This document shows, in pieces, positions 7,073 to 18,519 of a stretch of 20,092 nt of DNA. A model generated the notes under the pieces. It had not been told where the DNA came from, ran no database searches, and saw nothing but the letters and a program-made list of their open reading frames with translations. A program made the position numbers and the translations under genes. The DNA is from an uncultured Selenomonadaceae bacterium. Lineage in GTDB: Bacteria > Bacillota > Negativicutes > Selenomonadales > Selenomonadaceae. Every line of letters begins with the position of its first letter. Position 1 is the first letter of the stretch. Where the stretch lies: positions 1-20,092 of the forward strand of contig CAJORE010000128.1 of NCBI GenBank assembly GCA_905236595.1. Reading direction: 5' to 3'.

Positions 7073-8209
7073 TTAACTTAATCGCTCCTTAAAGTCGTCA
7101 TAACCGAATTTTTTTACCGTAGTTAAGGTGCCGTCGCTACGCAAAAGCATAATCGTCGGCAACGGCACACCGTTAAACGTGTTGTTCTTAACCATGGTAT
7201 AAATTGCCATGTCCTCGAACAACAAACAATCACCTTCTTTGAGCGGATCGGCAAAAGAATATTCGCCGAACACATCACCGGCCAAGCACGTCGCCGCGCC
7301 CAAACGATATGTATAGGCTTTCGCCCCCGGTACATCGGCGCCCATTATACGCGGACGATATGGCATCTCCAAAACATCCGGCGCATGACACGCCGCCGAT
7401 GCATCTATTATCACGTTACCGTCGGCGCGTACCTCAAGCACCCGCGTCGCCAAATAACCGGCGTCCAATGCAACGGCTTCCCCCGGTTCCAAGTAAACCG
7501 TAAGATTATACTTTTGTTGCATACGCCTTATACATTCGCGCAGAATATCCAACCGATAATCGGCGCGGGTGATATGGTGTCCGCCGCCAAAGTTCAGCCA
7601 TTTTATTTTCGGCAGATATTCGCCGAATTTTTCCTCCACCGCCGCCAAAGTTTCCGCCAAGGCATCGGCATTTTGTTCGCACAATGTATGAAAATGCAAT
7701 CCATCCACTTCGGACGGCAAACCATCCGCCGGAAAATCGGCGCGTTTTATGCCCATCCGCGAACCTTCGGCACAGGGATCGTATATTGCCGCTGCCTGCG
7801 TAGAGTGTTCGGGATTTATGCGCAAACCACATTGTGCGCCATGTTCTTTGGCAATCGCGGCAAATTTTTTTAGCTGTCGAAAAGAATTAAACACGACATG
7901 ATCGCAAAGATTGGCTATTTCGACAAACTCGCTTTCTTTGTACGCCGGCGCAAAAACATGATTTTCCTTGCCCATTTCGTCACGGGCAAGCCGCGCCTCA
8001 AACAATCCGCTGGCCGCCGTTCCCGCCAAATATTCACCGATTAATGGATAAAGCCGAAACAAAGCAAAACACTTTTGCGCCAACAGAATTTTTGCGCCCG
8101 TTTCCCGTTGCACCTTCGCCAGAATCGCCAAATTTTGGCGAAGTTTGTTTTCGTCGATAACGTAAGCGGGCGTATCGCGCAAGTTATCTGCCCAGCCTGC
8201 GCCGCTCAT
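7073..8209 (-). CDS. nspC: Carboxynorspermidine/carboxyspermidine decarboxylase
   Basis: PLP enzyme of the alanine-racemase/DapDC fold. It decarboxylates carboxyspermidine or carboxynorspermidine to spermidine or norspermidine. Seen in the sequence: TPAYVIDE near the N-terminus, the PLP-lysine motif AQKCFALF (Lys46), HFHTLCEQ, FGGGHHITR, the phosphate-binding EPGEAVAL, ASAACHAPDVLEMPYRP with the active-site Cys-His pair, and CLAGDVFGEYSF. These distinguish it from diaminopimelate and ornithine decarboxylases. An upstream in-frame ATG at 8242 exists, but ATG 8209 overlaps the preceding stop as ATGA (8209-8206), the usual sign of coupling. It gives 378 aa, the family length, beginning close to the conserved TPAYVI strand. 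The preceding gene supplies its substrate. Confidence 0.94.
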   Translation of the reverse strand: MSGAGWADNLRDTPAYVIDENKLRQNLAILAKVQRETGAKILLAQKCFALFRLYPLIGEYLAGTAASGLFEARLARDEMGKENHVFAPAYKESEFVEIANLCDHVVFNSFRQLKKFAAIAKEHGAQCGLRINPEHSTQAAAIYDPCAEGSRMGIKRADFPADGLPSEVDGLHFHTLCEQNADALAETLAAVEEKFGEYLPKIKWLNFGGGHHITRADYRLDILRECIRRMQQKYNLTVYLEPGEAVALDAGYLATRVLEVRADGNVIIDASAACHAPDVLEMPYRPRIMGADVPGAKAYTYRLGAATCLAGDVFGEYSFADPLKEGDCLLFEDMAIYTMVKNNTFNGVPLPTIMLLRSDGTLTTVKKFGYDDFKERLS

Positions 8210-9414
8210 TCGACCGCCGCAGGCTTGTCCGTCGTTTGCCACGGCAACCCCCGCTTATTAAGTTCATCCATAAACGGATCGGGATCAAACTCTTCGACAT
8301 TATGGACGCCACGCAAATTCCACACGCCGGTCAACATCATTTTTGCACCGATCATTGCCGGTACGCCCGTCGTGTATGCAACAGCCTGAGAACCGACTTC
8401 GCGATAACATTGCTCGTGATCGCATACGTTGTAGACGTACCATGTTTTTGCTTGGCCGTCCTTCATGCCCTGCACAATACAACCGATATTGGTGTTGCCC
8501 TTGGTGCGTTCACCCAAAGTTGCCGGATCGGGCAAAACAGCTTTTAAGAATTGCAACGGCACAATTTTTTGTCCGTTGAAATCAATGGGCTTTATGCTTG
8601 TCATGCCGACGTTCTCCAAACATTTTAGGTGCATAAGATAGCTTTCGCCGAAAGTCATAAAAAAGCGAATACGTTTCAAATGCGGAATGTTTTTGACCAA
8701 CGACTCCAATTCTTCGTGATAAAGCAAATACATATCGCGGCGACCGACTTCGGCAAAATCATACGAGCGTTTGACGGACATTGGCGGAACGGTAATCCAT
8801 TCGCCGTTTTCCCAATAGCGCCCTTCGGCGGTAACTTCCCGAATGTTTATTTCGGGATTGAAGTTGGTGGCGAACGGATAACCATGGTCGCCGCCGTTGC
8901 AATCCAAAATATCTATGCTGTGTATCTCGTCAAATTCGTGCTTTTGCGCGTAAGCGGTAAAAACACCGGTCACGCCGGGGTCGAAGCCGCAACCCAATAC
9001 CGCCGTCAATCCGGCGGCCGCAAAACGCTCGTTATACGCCCATTGCTCTTTGTACTCAAATTTTGCCAGAGTCTCGTCTTCGTAATTGGCGGTGTCAAGA
9101 TAATTCGTCTTCGTTTTGAGGCACGCTTCCATTATGGAAAGATCCTGATAGGGAAGAGCCAAATTCATCACCAGATCGGGGCGGAAATTTTCAATTAAAT
9201 CAACAAGTGCCGCCGTATTTGCCGCATCAACAGCGTCGGTGGAAATTTTTGCCGACGGATCTTTGGCGAGAAGCCGCGCTTTTAGCGCATCGCATTTCTC
9301 TTTTGTGCGCGAGGCAATCAAAATTTCGGAAAAAATCGGCGCACCGACTTCAACGCACTTATGCGCCGCCACCGACGCAACGCCGCCGCTACCGATAATC
9401 ATGACTTTTCCCAT
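8206..9414 (-). CDS. Carboxynorspermidine/carboxyspermidine dehydrogenase (saccharopine dehydrogenase family)
   Basis: NADPH-dependent enzyme of the saccharopine dehydrogenase superfamily. It condenses aspartate beta-semialdehyde with putrescine or diaminopropane to form the carboxylated triamine. The Rossmann start is KVMIIGSGGVASVAAHKC (GxGGVA). Other family-like segments are LVMNLALPYQD, YLDTANYEDE, VLGCGFDPGVTGVF and DCNGGDHGYPFATNFNPEINIREV. The match to CANSDH rather than lysine-pathway enzymes rests on these plus the immediate overlap with nspC. The start is ATG 9414, with GGAGG 11 bases upstream. ATGs at 9456 and 9468 lack a Shine-Dalgarno and would add a non-conserved tail before the nucleotide-binding strand. 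The product is 402 aa. It is the first gene of the polyamine-histidine operon and has a leader of about 140 bases. Confidence 0.93.
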   Translation of the reverse strand: MGKVMIIGSGGVASVAAHKCVEVGAPIFSEILIASRTKEKCDALKARLLAKDPSAKISTDAVDAANTAALVDLIENFRPDLVMNLALPYQDLSIMEACLKTKTNYLDTANYEDETLAKFEYKEQWAYNERFAAAGLTAVLGCGFDPGVTGVFTAYAQKHEFDEIHSIDILDCNGGDHGYPFATNFNPEINIREVTAEGRYWENGEWITVPPMSVKRSYDFAEVGRRDMYLLYHEELESLVKNIPHLKRIRFFMTFGESYLMHLKCLENVGMTSIKPIDFNGQKIVPLQFLKAVLPDPATLGERTKGNTNIGCIVQGMKDGQAKTWYVYNVCDHEQCYREVGSQAVAYTTGVPAMIGAKMMLTGVWNLRGVHNVEEFDPDPFMDELNKRGLPWQTTDKPAAVE

Positions 9415-9561
9415 TTTTTCGTTTTCCTCCACAAACCCATAAAATTTTTCATTCATGGCAAACGCCAACGGGACATATTAGCTATGATTGACTTAACCTC
9501 CCATAGGACATCGGGGAAAATAACCAATCAAAAATCAAACCCGTTTACCATATAATCGTTG

Positions 9562-15251: not shown

Positions 15252-17081
15252 ATGTGTGGAATTGTGGGCTATGTCGGCAACGGTCAGGCCGCGCCGTTTT
15301 TGCTTGAAGGACTTTCCAAGCTTGAATACCGGGGTTACGATTCGGCGGGCATCGCCGTTTATGACGGGCAAATCGTAAACGTTGACAAGAGCGTCGGACG
15401 TCTCGCCGCATTGCGCGAAAAAATCGGCAAAGATATGCCGCAAGGAACGCTGGGCATAGGCCATACCCGTTGGGCGACGCACGGACGTCCCTCCGACCGC
15501 AACGCCCATCCTCATGCCGACTGTTCCGGCGATTTTGTTGTCGTGCATAACGGCATTATCGAAAATTATTTATCACTCAAAGAAGAACTAATCGAAAAAG
15601 GACACCATTTCCAATCCGAGACCGATACGGAAGTTGTGGCGCATCTTATCGAAGACGTGTACGACGGTGATTTCCTAAGCTCCGTACGCAAAGTTTTGCA
15701 ACGCATCGAAGGTTCGTATTCACTGGTGTTCATGAGCAAAAAACATCCCGACGAACTTATTTGCACCAAGCAGGACAATCCCCTCGTCATCGGCCTGGGC
15801 GAAGGCGAAAATTTCATTGCTTCCGACATTCCCGCCATTATCGGCAGAACGCGCCAAACCTTCATCATGGCCGACGGCGAAATTGCCACGGTGAAAAAGG
15901 ATTCAATCAAAATTACCGATCGCAGCGGCAACGTCTTGAAGAAAAAAGTTTTCACGGTTAATTGGAACGCCGAGGCCGCAGAAAAGGGCGGCTATGAGCA
16001 TTTCATGCTCAAAGAGATCATGGAACAGCCCAAAGCCGTGCGCGACACCATGCGCGAGCGCATCACGAAAGACGGTTCGGGCATCGTGATGAACGAATTA
16101 AAGTGGGACAAAGAATACTTAAAGAGCTTTAACAAAATTTATATTGTCGCGTGCGGCACGGCTTATCACGCCGGCTTGGTCGGCAAGTATTACATCGAAA
16201 AATTGGCGCGGATTTTAGTCGAAGTTGACGTAGCTTCGGAATTTCGTTACCGCGACCCGATTATCGACGAAAAGACGCTTATGCTCGTCGTGAGCCAGTC
16301 CGGCGAAACCAGCGACACATTGGCGGCGCTGAAGGAAGCCAAACGGCGCGGCGCCAAAACGCTTGCGGTCACCAACGTCGTCGGTTCGTCCATTGCCCGC
16401 GAGGCGGACGCGGTTCTTTATACATGGGCAGGCCCCGAAATTGCCGTTGCCAGCACCAAGGCATATACGACACAACTCATTTTGATGTTCATGCTTGCGC
16501 TCTATATGGCGGAGATTTTGGAAACGCAAACGCCGACGCGCATAAAAGAACTAATCGACCTTTTGAAGAACATTCCCGGCCAAATAGGCGAAACGCTCTC
16601 CGACACCGAACCCATAAAAACTTTCGCCAAACGCTACGGCTTCAACGAAGATGTGTTTTACATAGGCCGCTCCCTTGATTACGACGTAGCCTTGGAAGGT
16701 GCTTTGAAACTAAAGGAAGTGTCGTACATTCACGCCGAAGCCTATGCCGCCGGCGAATTAAAACACGGAACGTTGGCGTTAATCGTCGAAGGCGTTCCGG
16801 TCATCGCCCTTGCCACGCAAAAAAGCGTCTATGAAAAAACACTTTCAAACATCAAGGAAGTAAAAGCACGCGACGCAGTAGTCATCGGCATTGCCGCCGA
16901 TGGCGACGAAGAACTCATCAAATACGTCGATCACGTCATTACCGTTCCGCAAACCGACGAACTTTTGATACCGCTGTTGACGGTGGTGCCGTTGCAGCTT
17001 TTGGCATATTACGGCGCGATAACCCGCGGTTGCGACGTTGACAAGCCGCGCAATTTGGCCAAATCGGTAACGGTTGAATGA
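15252..17081 (+). CDS. glmS: Glutamine--fructose-6-phosphate aminotransferase (isomerizing)
   Basis: Makes glucosamine-6-phosphate from fructose-6-phosphate and glutamine, the entry step to UDP-GlcNAc for peptidoglycan and lipid A-type sugars. The start is set by ATG-TGT at 15252: Met removal exposes Cys2, the glutaminase nucleophile (MCGIVGYVG). GGGAGG at 15239-15244 is 7 bases away. The glutaminase domain includes YRGYDSAGIAV, HTRWATHGRPSDRNAHPH and VVHNGIIENY. Two SIS sugar-isomerase domains follow: VACGTAYHAG (about residue 297), SQSGETSDTL, ASTKAYTTQL, and GRSLDYDVALEGALKLKE with GELKHG (about 470 on). The C-terminal KSVTVE contains the catalytic lysine region. The length of 609 aa is standard. 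An upstream ATG at 15201 lies in the -10 box and is rejected. The SpeD-like gene starts 10 bases after the stop. Confidence 0.98.
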   Translation: MCGIVGYVGNGQAAPFLLEGLSKLEYRGYDSAGIAVYDGQIVNVDKSVGRLAALREKIGKDMPQGTLGIGHTRWATHGRPSDRNAHPHADCSGDFVVVHNGIIENYLSLKEELIEKGHHFQSETDTEVVAHLIEDVYDGDFLSSVRKVLQRIEGSYSLVFMSKKHPDELICTKQDNPLVIGLGEGENFIASDIPAIIGRTRQTFIMADGEIATVKKDSIKITDRSGNVLKKKVFTVNWNAEAAEKGGYEHFMLKEIMEQPKAVRDTMRERITKDGSGIVMNELKWDKEYLKSFNKIYIVACGTAYHAGLVGKYYIEKLARILVEVDVASEFRYRDPIIDEKTLMLVVSQSGETSDTLAALKEAKRRGAKTLAVTNVVGSSIAREADAVLYTWAGPEIAVASTKAYTTQLILMFMLALYMAEILETQTPTRIKELIDLLKNIPGQIGETLSDTEPIKTFAKRYGFNEDVFYIGRSLDYDVALEGALKLKEVSYIHAEAYAAGELKHGTLALIVEGVPVIALATQKSVYEKTLSNIKEVKARDAVVIGIAADGDEELIKYVDHVITVPQTDELLIPLLTVVPLQLLAYYGAITRGCDVDKPRNLAKSVTVE

Positions 17082-17091
17082 GGAATTGAGC

Positions 17092-17544
17092 GTGAAAACA
17101 TTAGCCAAACACTTGGTGGCCGACCTTTACGGATGCCACCCCGCTTCAACCGCCGACAAGGATGCGGCGGAAGGCGAAATCGCCGATAAATTGCAGGAAG
17201 CGGGCTACACGATATTAAAAATTTCCTCCGAACACATGACCGAAAATCATGCGATCCTGACCGCCGTGTTCAATCAAGGACACATCACGGTTCACGTTTA
17301 TGCAGACTTAAAATATGTGGCAACGGATATTTTCTTAAACGGCAACAACGCCGAACCGGAAATTTTGTTCAAGGAAATAAGGAATTTCTTTAAGCCGGAA
17401 AAAACACGCATAACCGTTTTGAAACGCGGCGATTTTAAGCAAGGCAGCGACATGAAGCCGCAAATAAAAACCCGCGTTGCCCCATTGCGAAAGATTCACA
17501 ACACGGGCGCCAAGGTAATAAGAACATTGGCGCGGCGCAAGTAA
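17092..17544 (+). CDS. SpeD-like protein lacking the pyruvoyl serine (probable non-canonical AdoMet decarboxylase homologue)
   Basis: The first 120 residues follow the small prokaryotic AdoMet decarboxylase fold: KTLAKHLVADLYGC matches the family opening G-R-H-x-x-A-E-x-x-x-C, and GHITVHVYADLKYVATDIF matches the segment written S-H-L-x-I-H-T-W-P-E-x-x-Y-A in active enzymes. Measured from GTG 17092, the numbering coincides with the Thermotoga enzyme, as recalled: Ser63, which becomes the pyruvoyl cofactor, is Gly63 (GGA 17278-17280), the preceding Glu is Gln62, and Cys83 is Asn83. His68 is kept. Self-cleavage at this site is therefore not possible. The C-terminal 35 residues are strongly basic, ending IRTLARRK, unlike the usual family end. 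GAGGAA (17080-17085) sits over the glmS stop, which supports GTG as start. Function unknown: a regulator, binding protein or unrelated enzyme on the same fold are options. Confidence 0.8.
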   Translation: MKTLAKHLVADLYGCHPASTADKDAAEGEIADKLQEAGYTILKISSEHMTENHAILTAVFNQGHITVHVYADLKYVATDIFLNGNNAEPEILFKEIRNFFKPEKTRITVLKRGDFKQGSDMKPQIKTRVAPLRKIHNTGAKVIRTLARRK

Positions 17545-17568: not shown

Positions 17569-18519
17569 ATGAAATATTTTTTCTTTGTTGCCGCCGCCGT
17601 TATGTTGGCGGGCGGGTTTGCCGGAATGAGCGAACTGCCGCAACTTGGCACGGCGATGCTGTTTATCGGCGGCTGGTGTCTGTATAAGGGCGTAAAAAAC
17701 GCCAAAAATGACGAGCGGCGCTTGGCTTTGTCCGGCGAAGCCGAAAGCGAACGGGCAGCAATGCTCCAAGAAAGCTACGACAAGGCCGTCGGCGATTACC
17801 GAGCGATCGAAACGGCGCGGCGCACTATCGGCGACATTGAGTTATCCAACAATCTGGCGGCAATGCAACAAGTGAGCGGCAAACTTTTGCGCTACCTCGA
17901 AAAACATCCCGATCGGATTCCGTTGGCGCGAAAATTCATCGACTACTATCAGGATCGTGCAGCTCACTTAGCGGCAAAATATGCCGAACTTGAAGAGACG
18001 GGCATAAACACGGCCGAAATTGCCGACATGAAAGAACGCACCAAGATTGCCCTATCACAGATGAACGACGCTTACGCCGAACAATTTACCGCCGTGCTGA
18101 ACGATCGATTGTTAGACATGGATGCCGAACTTAAAGTGCTAAGCCAAACTCTTTCGCAAGACGGCGTGACAACAAACGGTAGGCGTCCGCCGCTTTTGGG
18201 CAAGCCCGGTGAAGCGGTGGGCGTGTTACCGGCGGCAAATACGTCCGTCGGGCGACGAAACAGTGCCGCGCTGAGTATAATTCCTCCCGCCAAACGAAGC
18301 GATGTTGTTTTGACAAAAGTGATTCAATCGGCATTGGCAATTTTTTTGGGAGGCTTCGGTGCGCACAAATTTTACCAAGGCAAAACCCTGCAAGGTGTGC
18401 TGTACATCATCTTTTGCTGGACGGCGATACCGTCGTTTATCGGTTTTTGCGAAGGACTTCGGTATCTTTTCATGAAGTTGGACACCTTTTATTTGGATTA
18501 TTACGAAAAGCGCACTTGA
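17569..18519 (+). CDS. Membrane protein with XpaC-like helical region and C-terminal TM2 domain
   Basis: A 316-residue protein. Two hydrophobic segments sit at the N-terminus (about residues 3-20 and 25-40). A charged helical region follows (about 45-190), in which YLEKHPDRIPLARKFIDYY (109-127) resembles XpaC, the 5-bromo-4-chloroindolyl phosphate hydrolysis family. A low-complexity linker rich in Pro, Gly and Arg spans about 195-245. The C-terminal TM2 domain (about 246-300) has FLGGFGAHKFYQGK, the family's G-x-x-G-x-H-x-F-Y signature, and two hydrophobic stretches. XpaC is often found with tellurite-resistance TelA proteins, which are not seen here. The function of either domain is not established. 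ATG 17569 follows the SpeD-like stop by 24 bases. The Shine-Dalgarno is weak, suggesting coupled or low translation. Its stop codon overlaps the infC promoter -35. Confidence 0.8.
   Translation: MKYFFFVAAAVMLAGGFAGMSELPQLGTAMLFIGGWCLYKGVKNAKNDERRLALSGEAESERAAMLQESYDKAVGDYRAIETARRTIGDIELSNNLAAMQQVSGKLLRYLEKHPDRIPLARKFIDYYQDRAAHLAAKYAELEETGINTAEIADMKERTKIALSQMNDAYAEQFTAVLNDRLLDMDAELKVLSQTLSQDGVTTNGRRPPLLGKPGEAVGVLPAANTSVGRRNSAALSIIPPAKRSDVVLTKVIQSALAIFLGGFGAHKFYQGKTLQGVLYIIFCWTAIPSFIGFCEGLRYLFMKLDTFYLDYYEKRT

Follow-up and report, generated by a model that had tools for sequence, protein, structure and literature searches.

The window analysed here, a 20,092-nucleotide stretch of DNA from an uncultured Selenomonadaceae bacterium, carries a speD-like gene at positions 17092..17544 of the forward strand, which encodes a serine-less SpeD paralogue of 150 amino acids plus a stop codon that bears a C-terminal tail. 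The gene is intact: its GTG start coincides with the aligned starts of its relatives, and its reading frame is open throughout. Pfam AdoMet_dc (PF02675), the sole Pfam domain above cut-off, covers residues 7-113 with an E-value of 2.2e-19, which places the protein in the S-adenosylmethionine (AdoMet) decarboxylase (AdoMetDC) fold, and predicted structures of the tailed protein match 1tlu and 1vr7. The NCBIfam model for the Bsu-type AdoMetDC, TIGR03330, matches as well, yet at 65.9 bits against a cut-off of 75.65. Alignment with T. maritima SpeD, which is free of gaps across the motif S-E-S-H-L-T-I-H, sets Q-G-H in the place of E62-S63-H64. Specifically, codon 63 (GGA, 17278..17280) encodes Gly in an N-Q-G-H context instead of the self-cleavage serine, and codon 83 (AAC, 17338..17340) encodes Asn instead of Cys83, while His64 (17281..17283) and His68 (17293..17295) are retained, all on the forward strand; the residues and coordinates given in the original prediction are right. 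Although the protein shares the AdoMetDC fold with class 1b SpeD (the T. maritima TM0655 and B. subtilis type, PF02675/TIGR03330), it lacks Ser63, the source of the pyruvoyl cofactor, and the pairing of His68 with Cys83; it also has Asp11 for Glu11 and an extra tail of 34 residues. As originally argued, the requirements of an ordinary pyruvoyl AdoMetDC are absent, and the protein is presumably catalytically inactive.

Gly63 cannot be put down to a sequencing error at 17278, because it is shared by all 57 sequences of alignment A2 and by all 46 unbroken loci of the window's family (f1). Asn83 is a local feature: 43 of 46 family members retain Cys83, and the nearest other homologue, P0003 (88% identity), also has Asn83, while P0004-P0007 have Cys83. 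No Ser, Thr or Cys between positions 50 and 82 is kept in more than 43% of the window's family, so that a displaced nucleophile, which the original prediction had allowed for, is not found there.

The basic C-terminal tail is real and, beyond the original description, is a class-wide signature, the class being Negativicutes according to the named records. It extends 34 residues past the domain, and the net charge over residues 108-150 is +11. Its start, residues 111-123 (KRGDFKQGSDMKP, 17422..17460, forward strand), holds the class-wide tail motif, R-G-D-F-G...D-M-K-P, which the window protein shares with the family. The basic tail end, residues 124-150 (17461..17541, forward strand), is predicted to form a strand (124-129) and a helix (131-147), with block values of the predicted local distance difference test (pLDDT) of 72-82. 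The strict pattern RG...D.[KRM]P occurs in 129 of 150 tailed sequences, and the 21 misses comprise 11 with Glu for Asp, 5 with other spacing and 5 with another residue after Arg. In six examples the tail carries a net charge of +8 to +17, and in four of six sequences its end is more amphipathic than shuffles (p 0.006-0.012). A single-sequence search of 199 phylum genomes for the tail outside the class gave five matches, all within the class. A profile search of 299 phylum genomes (E up to 0.01) gave 14, of which 10 lie within the class; the remaining four have weak E-values (1.7e-4 to 0.0097) and include two with in-frame stops, so that none is a convincing case outside the class.

Searches with PF02675 covered 60 relatives and then a 150-genome sample of the class, and found matches in 59/60 and 148/150, respectively. 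The tailed short paralogue is confirmed in 137/150 class genomes, a count that includes a frame-shifted copy (G036) and one with a single TGA (G272); three genomes (G050, G326, G054) have no tailed paralogue, and the other 10 have a PF02675 match with the tail uninspected. Named records with the family include Sporomusa, Pelosinus, Anaerovibrio, Propionispira, Megasphaera, Veillonella, Phascolarctobacterium and Acidaminococcus, among others. A check of Phascolarctobacterium and Sporomusa places both in the Negativicutes, to which the others presumably belong as well. Source records that name such proteins mostly call them "AdoMet decarboxylase". Ser63 is absent in 53/77 named loci, a set that is not evenly sampled as the scan patterns favour the tail motif. 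The Anaerospora hongkongensis copy (L216) has both Ser63 and Cys83. Given the family's spread, the tailed SpeD-like protein appears to have arisen before the class radiated. In the frame-shifted copy (L059) the break lies between core and tail, and the same-genus copies in G008 and G364 are unbroken; the G272 copy (L205) has its single TGA in frame.

Residue counts were taken over 150 tailed sequences, one per genome, from the 60-relative and 150-genome sets; they leave out nine tail-less SpeDs, G036 and the tailed copies of G310, G339, G272, G319, G336, G357 and G359. Residue 63 is Gly in 87, Ser in 41, Phe in 7, Cys in 7, Ala in 5, Thr in 2 and His in 1. Ser63, His68 and Cys83 occur together in 26/150, Ser63 without Cys83 occurs in 15/150, and 55/150 lack Cys83. 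At least one serine-less member is present in 17 of 32 coded families. Gly63, for which the original prediction suggested looking for a clade, marks every sampled member of the window's family but not the whole class, where the sequences with Ser63 belong to other families; the change is therefore a repeated one within an old tailed family rather than the oddity of one gene. On a tree of 105 rows, from which columns 62, 63, 64, 68 and 83 were removed, at least eight changes between Ser and non-Ser are required (bootstrap 5-95% range 7-9), five of them forced by starred branches; the tree rests on few columns, some of its branches are long, and the count does not separate loss from regain. A topology that unites all 75 non-Ser rows in one clade is rejected (approximately unbiased test, p 4.3e-26), and regain may account for a few Ser rows that sit among the others. 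Ser63 is encoded by AGY in 40/41 cases, one base from the Gly codons GGY, which may in part account for the prevalence of Gly among the replacements.

Close serine-less pairs give ratios of nonsynonymous to synonymous substitution rates (dN/dS) of 0-0.22, which indicates purifying selection. Examples are G006/G034 (0.08), G007/G035 (0.13), G258/G286 (0.07), G312/G354 (0.07), G292/G340 (0.02) and G045/G255 (0.03). For distant family pairs, whose dS is close to 1, the ratios rise to 0.28-0.57, probably because of saturation. The low ratios of close pairs and the wide spread reject a decaying pseudogene, in agreement with the original prediction, which had pointed to the open frame. A functionless relic of a redundant SpeD that decays slowly would account for the frame-shifted copy, the in-frame TGA and, if they are not due to saturation, the higher ratios of distant pairs; however, with the paralogue confirmed in most of the class, close pairs constrained and the tail motif kept, we consider such a relic extremely unlikely.

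The family also occurs in genomes with no match to the spermidine synthesis genes searched. At E up to 1e-40 NspC matches 79/150 class genomes, and at E up to 1e-15 SpeE matches 124/150. In 14 genomes of the serine-less family f15, mostly drafts, the tailed paralogue is the sole PF02675 match and there are no SpeE or NspC matches (G272, in which the gene carries the in-frame TGA, G281, G290, G312, G319, G322, G330, G334, G338, G342, G352, G354, G357 and G359). Because these 14 genomes have the paralogue without the searched spermidine synthesis genes, the tailed family is not generally tied to them. The same genomes bear on the possibility that the protein, like the prozyme of trypanosomes, activates the catalytic SpeD of its genome by pairing with it. 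In line with this, the window's genome (77% complete) contains, beside the serine-less copy, a second SpeD (L002:827-1765) with an intact L-D-K-S-H motif, which we take to be of the E. coli (class 1a) type, plus a SpeE match. The prozyme offers a precedent (excerpts of PMC5201418), and the models match AdoMetDC/prozyme heterodimer entries. However, the serine-less gene, the second SpeD and SpeE each sit on a separate contig, and one genus of the window's family has eight genomes in which a short match is the sole PF02675 match (four of the eight sequences were read). Since the 14 genomes, mostly drafts, have no other SpeD match, the paralogue appears not to be retained only together with a live AdoMetDC, and an activator of SpeD is quite unlikely.

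Conservation was compared as mean pairwise identity of the catalytic block (58-72) and of the tail (104 on). In the 26 sequences with the full triad the values are 0.92 for the block and 0.68 for the tail. The order is reversed in the window's family (0.43 and 0.63), in f122 with f4 (0.53 and 0.61) and in the other non-Ser sequences (0.54 and 0.63). Three of the four serine-less groups thus keep the tail better than the block, and the emphasis there shifts from catalysis to the tail. Additionally, a set of core residues is near-universal in the 150 tailed sequences: Asp11 (150/150), Cys15 (149/150), His64 (147/150), His68 (144/150) and Asp79 (150/150), with an aromatic residue at 70 in nearly all. 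Residues 11, 64, 68, 70 and 79 lie on strands in the predicted model, and these strands appear to form the SpeD packing face; two bacterial SpeD chains pack via their sheet faces, according to excerpts of PMC5201418. With the kept residues on this putative face, a dimer with a cationic arm is to be expected.

Starting from what the sequences establish, namely the absent serine, its repeated change, selection, the conservation of the tail and the occurrence without the searched spermidine genes, we propose that the tailed serine-less SpeD is a class-wide pseudoenzyme whose fold and tail are kept for binding, a reading to which we give about an even chance. The retained function is most likely binding, by a scaffold that would be dimeric and bear a cationic arm, and is not tied to spermidine synthesis. 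In the proposed course of events, an ancestor with an active site would have acquired the cationic C-terminal tail together with a second, non-catalytic job. Catalysis would then have become dispensable, and the serine would have been lost several times, while the core fold, the packing-face residues and the tail were retained. The arm of the dimer would add a strand and a basic helix and dock on a partner. Such a second job, presumably earlier than the losses, is the simplest cause of repeated serine loss with fold and tail kept.

Several results weigh against this proposal. As 41 of the 150 sequences keep Ser63, the shared tail is the sole ground for placing the second job first, and where Ser63 stands without Cys83 (15 sequences) the tail is less well kept than the block (0.49 and 0.58). 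The same holds for f15 (0.53 and 0.56), the one serine-less group in which the tail is not ahead. Nor are the tail ends of the f15 and f122 examples above shuffles in amphipathicity. Block pLDDT for the modelled tail is 70-82 when the class-wide alignment is used and 47-68 when that of the family is used. Finally, f15 (e.g. L122 and L128) has Cys60 in 19/20 and Ser/Thr82 in 20/20, close to the original site, which speaks against a simple loss of all chemistry in this group; a displaced nucleophile, for which the window's family shows no candidate, may thus exist in f15.

These two f15 residues, with the nearly invariant His64 and His68, also suit an enzyme of different mechanism that would use the old pocket without the usual pyruvoyl, and new activities are known for some pseudoenzymes (excerpts of PMC10211241). 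Against it, some lineages vary at residue 63 (Ala, Thr, Ser, Cys, Phe), Cys83 is often lost, Cys60 is present in only 3/47 of the window's family, and the tail outlasts the pocket block in most serine-less groups; we regard this alternative as decidedly improbable.

A special case of the pseudoenzyme reading is a ligand sensor, in which the old pocket of the dimer would bind a small ligand (a polyamine being the likeliest) whose signal the tail would relay. Such a sensor would explain why His64, His68, the aromatic residue at 70, Asp11 and Asp79 are near-universal though most of the 150 sequences have no serine. Eukaryotic AdoMetDC binds putrescine, as the titles of 3epa and 3epb indicate and as excerpts of PMC5201418 describe for putrescine sites in the beta-sheet. 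However, the kept residues may serve packing only, and no known output domain is present, Pfam having given AdoMet_dc only. AdoMet itself, proposed originally as a possible ligand, fits the window's family less well, because Phe49 and Glu72, which we take to be AdoMet contacts in AdoMetDC, are kept in only 3/46 and 10/46 members. In f1, f15 and f122 with f4 together they are kept in 3/84 and 18/84; in the remaining serine-less group Phe49 is kept in 15/25. Overall, a sensor seems unlikely.

In the window, glmS (15252..17081, forward strand; SIS and GATase domains, assigned from sequence) lies 10 bases upstream of the speD-like gene and is co-directional with it. The link to glmS and the cell envelope that the original prediction drew from this arrangement does not extend to the family: glmS is co-directional upstream within 300 bases in only 5/47 window-family loci (G000, G001, G018, G027 and G356) and in none elsewhere, and a conserved glmS operon is rejected. 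In the window's family lgt is co-directional upstream in 17/47 loci. In many other families the tailed gene is divergent to a nitronate monooxygenase-type gene, followed by a flavodiiron-type gene and then by ctsR-mcsA-mcsB-clpC. Outside f1, genes of this operon flank at least one locus in each of 18 families; the immediate divergent neighbour is ctsR in 6/13 f122 and 3/3 f125 loci, clpC is upstream in 4/6 f4 loci, and recD2 is divergent in 18/20 f15 loci. Pfam checks named CtsR, the McsB kinase domain, LGT and others, and mcsA, clpC and recD2 were named by reading the sequences; because flank lengths differ, neighbour misses make these counts lower bounds. The paralogue lies beside or near the operon in many loci, such as L071, L142 and L272.

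This neighbourhood raises the possibility of an adaptor for the ClpC protease. MecA, the usual ClpC adaptor, is unmatched in the 60 class genomes searched, with positive controls in B. subtilis and L. lactis. However, the evidence for an adaptor is confined to the neighbourhood, and the operon is near the tailed gene in only 1/47 window-family loci and 0/20 f15 loci, which makes such a role very unlikely.

The pseudoenzyme that we propose has partial parallels among known proteins. Like trypanosome prozyme, it is a dead paralogue beside a live AdoMetDC (excerpts of PMC5201418); unlike prozyme, which has the eukaryotic two-half fold, the tailed family is a single bacterial half and also occurs without any other AdoMetDC match. 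The N-terminal domain of human spermine synthase, a dead AdoMetDC fold, is part of a larger chain, whereas the tailed protein stands alone. SpeDA and SpeDC, arginine and ornithine decarboxylases, are likewise repurposed bacterial SpeD paralogues, but they are pyruvoyl enzymes that keep the serine (excerpts of PMC10407285), while the window protein has Gly63. The nearest bacterial case in the same excerpts is the broken domain of a V. vadensis fusion with a live SpeD domain, with others in Desulfobacteria; the words Selenomonas, Negativicutes, Bacillota and prozyme do not occur in the main text of PMC10407285. In the open-access literature, as far as its accessible parts extend, no tailed or serine-less SpeD of the class and no stand-alone, class-wide dead SpeD is recognised, which suggests that, relative to that literature, the present case is new beside the known dead folds, the prozyme and the spermine synthase domain.

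It is also conceivable, though we think it improbable, that the tailed family corresponds, in bacteria, to the 'presumed intermediate' in the origin of eukaryotic AdoMetDC. By this equally doubtful scheme, a single SpeD half would be extended at its C terminus, with one more strand at the edge of the sheet, and the extension would have made the fold useful as a binding module before catalysis was repeatedly lost. The alignment of the second model with human AdoMetDC ends at model residues 130-132 and human residues 327-329 (range ends only), just past the tail strand; that of the first model ended at 114-128. Against this counterpart, the extension is predicted as helix-strand-helix and not as alpha-beta-beta. 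Foldseek also matched mitochondrial ribosomal proteins, but too weakly for these hits to be considered.

If the class-wide pseudoenzyme reading is correct, a stand-alone bacterial pseudo-AdoMetDC is retained across most of a class, and the parallel changes of its serine, at least five to eight in number, offer a natural experiment on an enzyme that outlives its chemistry. With serine-bearing and serine-less members side by side, the order of the second job and the loss is directly testable. Because such proteins are mostly named AdoMet decarboxylase, gene-based counts of spermidine synthesis in which these bacteria are included may run too high.

Elsewhere in the window, on the reverse strand, lie nspC (7073..8242), a carboxynorspermidine decarboxylase gene above its NCBIfam cut-off and part of a spermidine route that needs no AdoMetDC, and a carboxynorspermidine synthase-like gene of the saccharopine dehydrogenase family (8206..9468; NF043000, E 5.2e-121, below the curated cut-off). 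Across the class sample, 19/150 genomes combine a SpeE-family match with one (17) or zero (2: G050 and G326) PF02675 matches. Nine belong to f1 and f4 (G016, G285, G294, G308, G315, G333, G351 and G361, with G301 in f4) and ten to f15 (G050, G258, G266, G286, G295, G302, G305, G309, G316 and G326); in the 13 of the 17 that were read, the sole match is the serine-less tailed paralogue. In the clusters L300-L302, SpeE occurs with a probable pyridoxal phosphate-dependent decarboxylase (by sequence reading) and the two carboxyspermidine-route genes, and SpeE may for this reason use another donor there. The next gene downstream of the speD-like gene (17569-18519) encodes a Halogen_Hydrol domain (PF10112) and a C-terminal TM2 domain.
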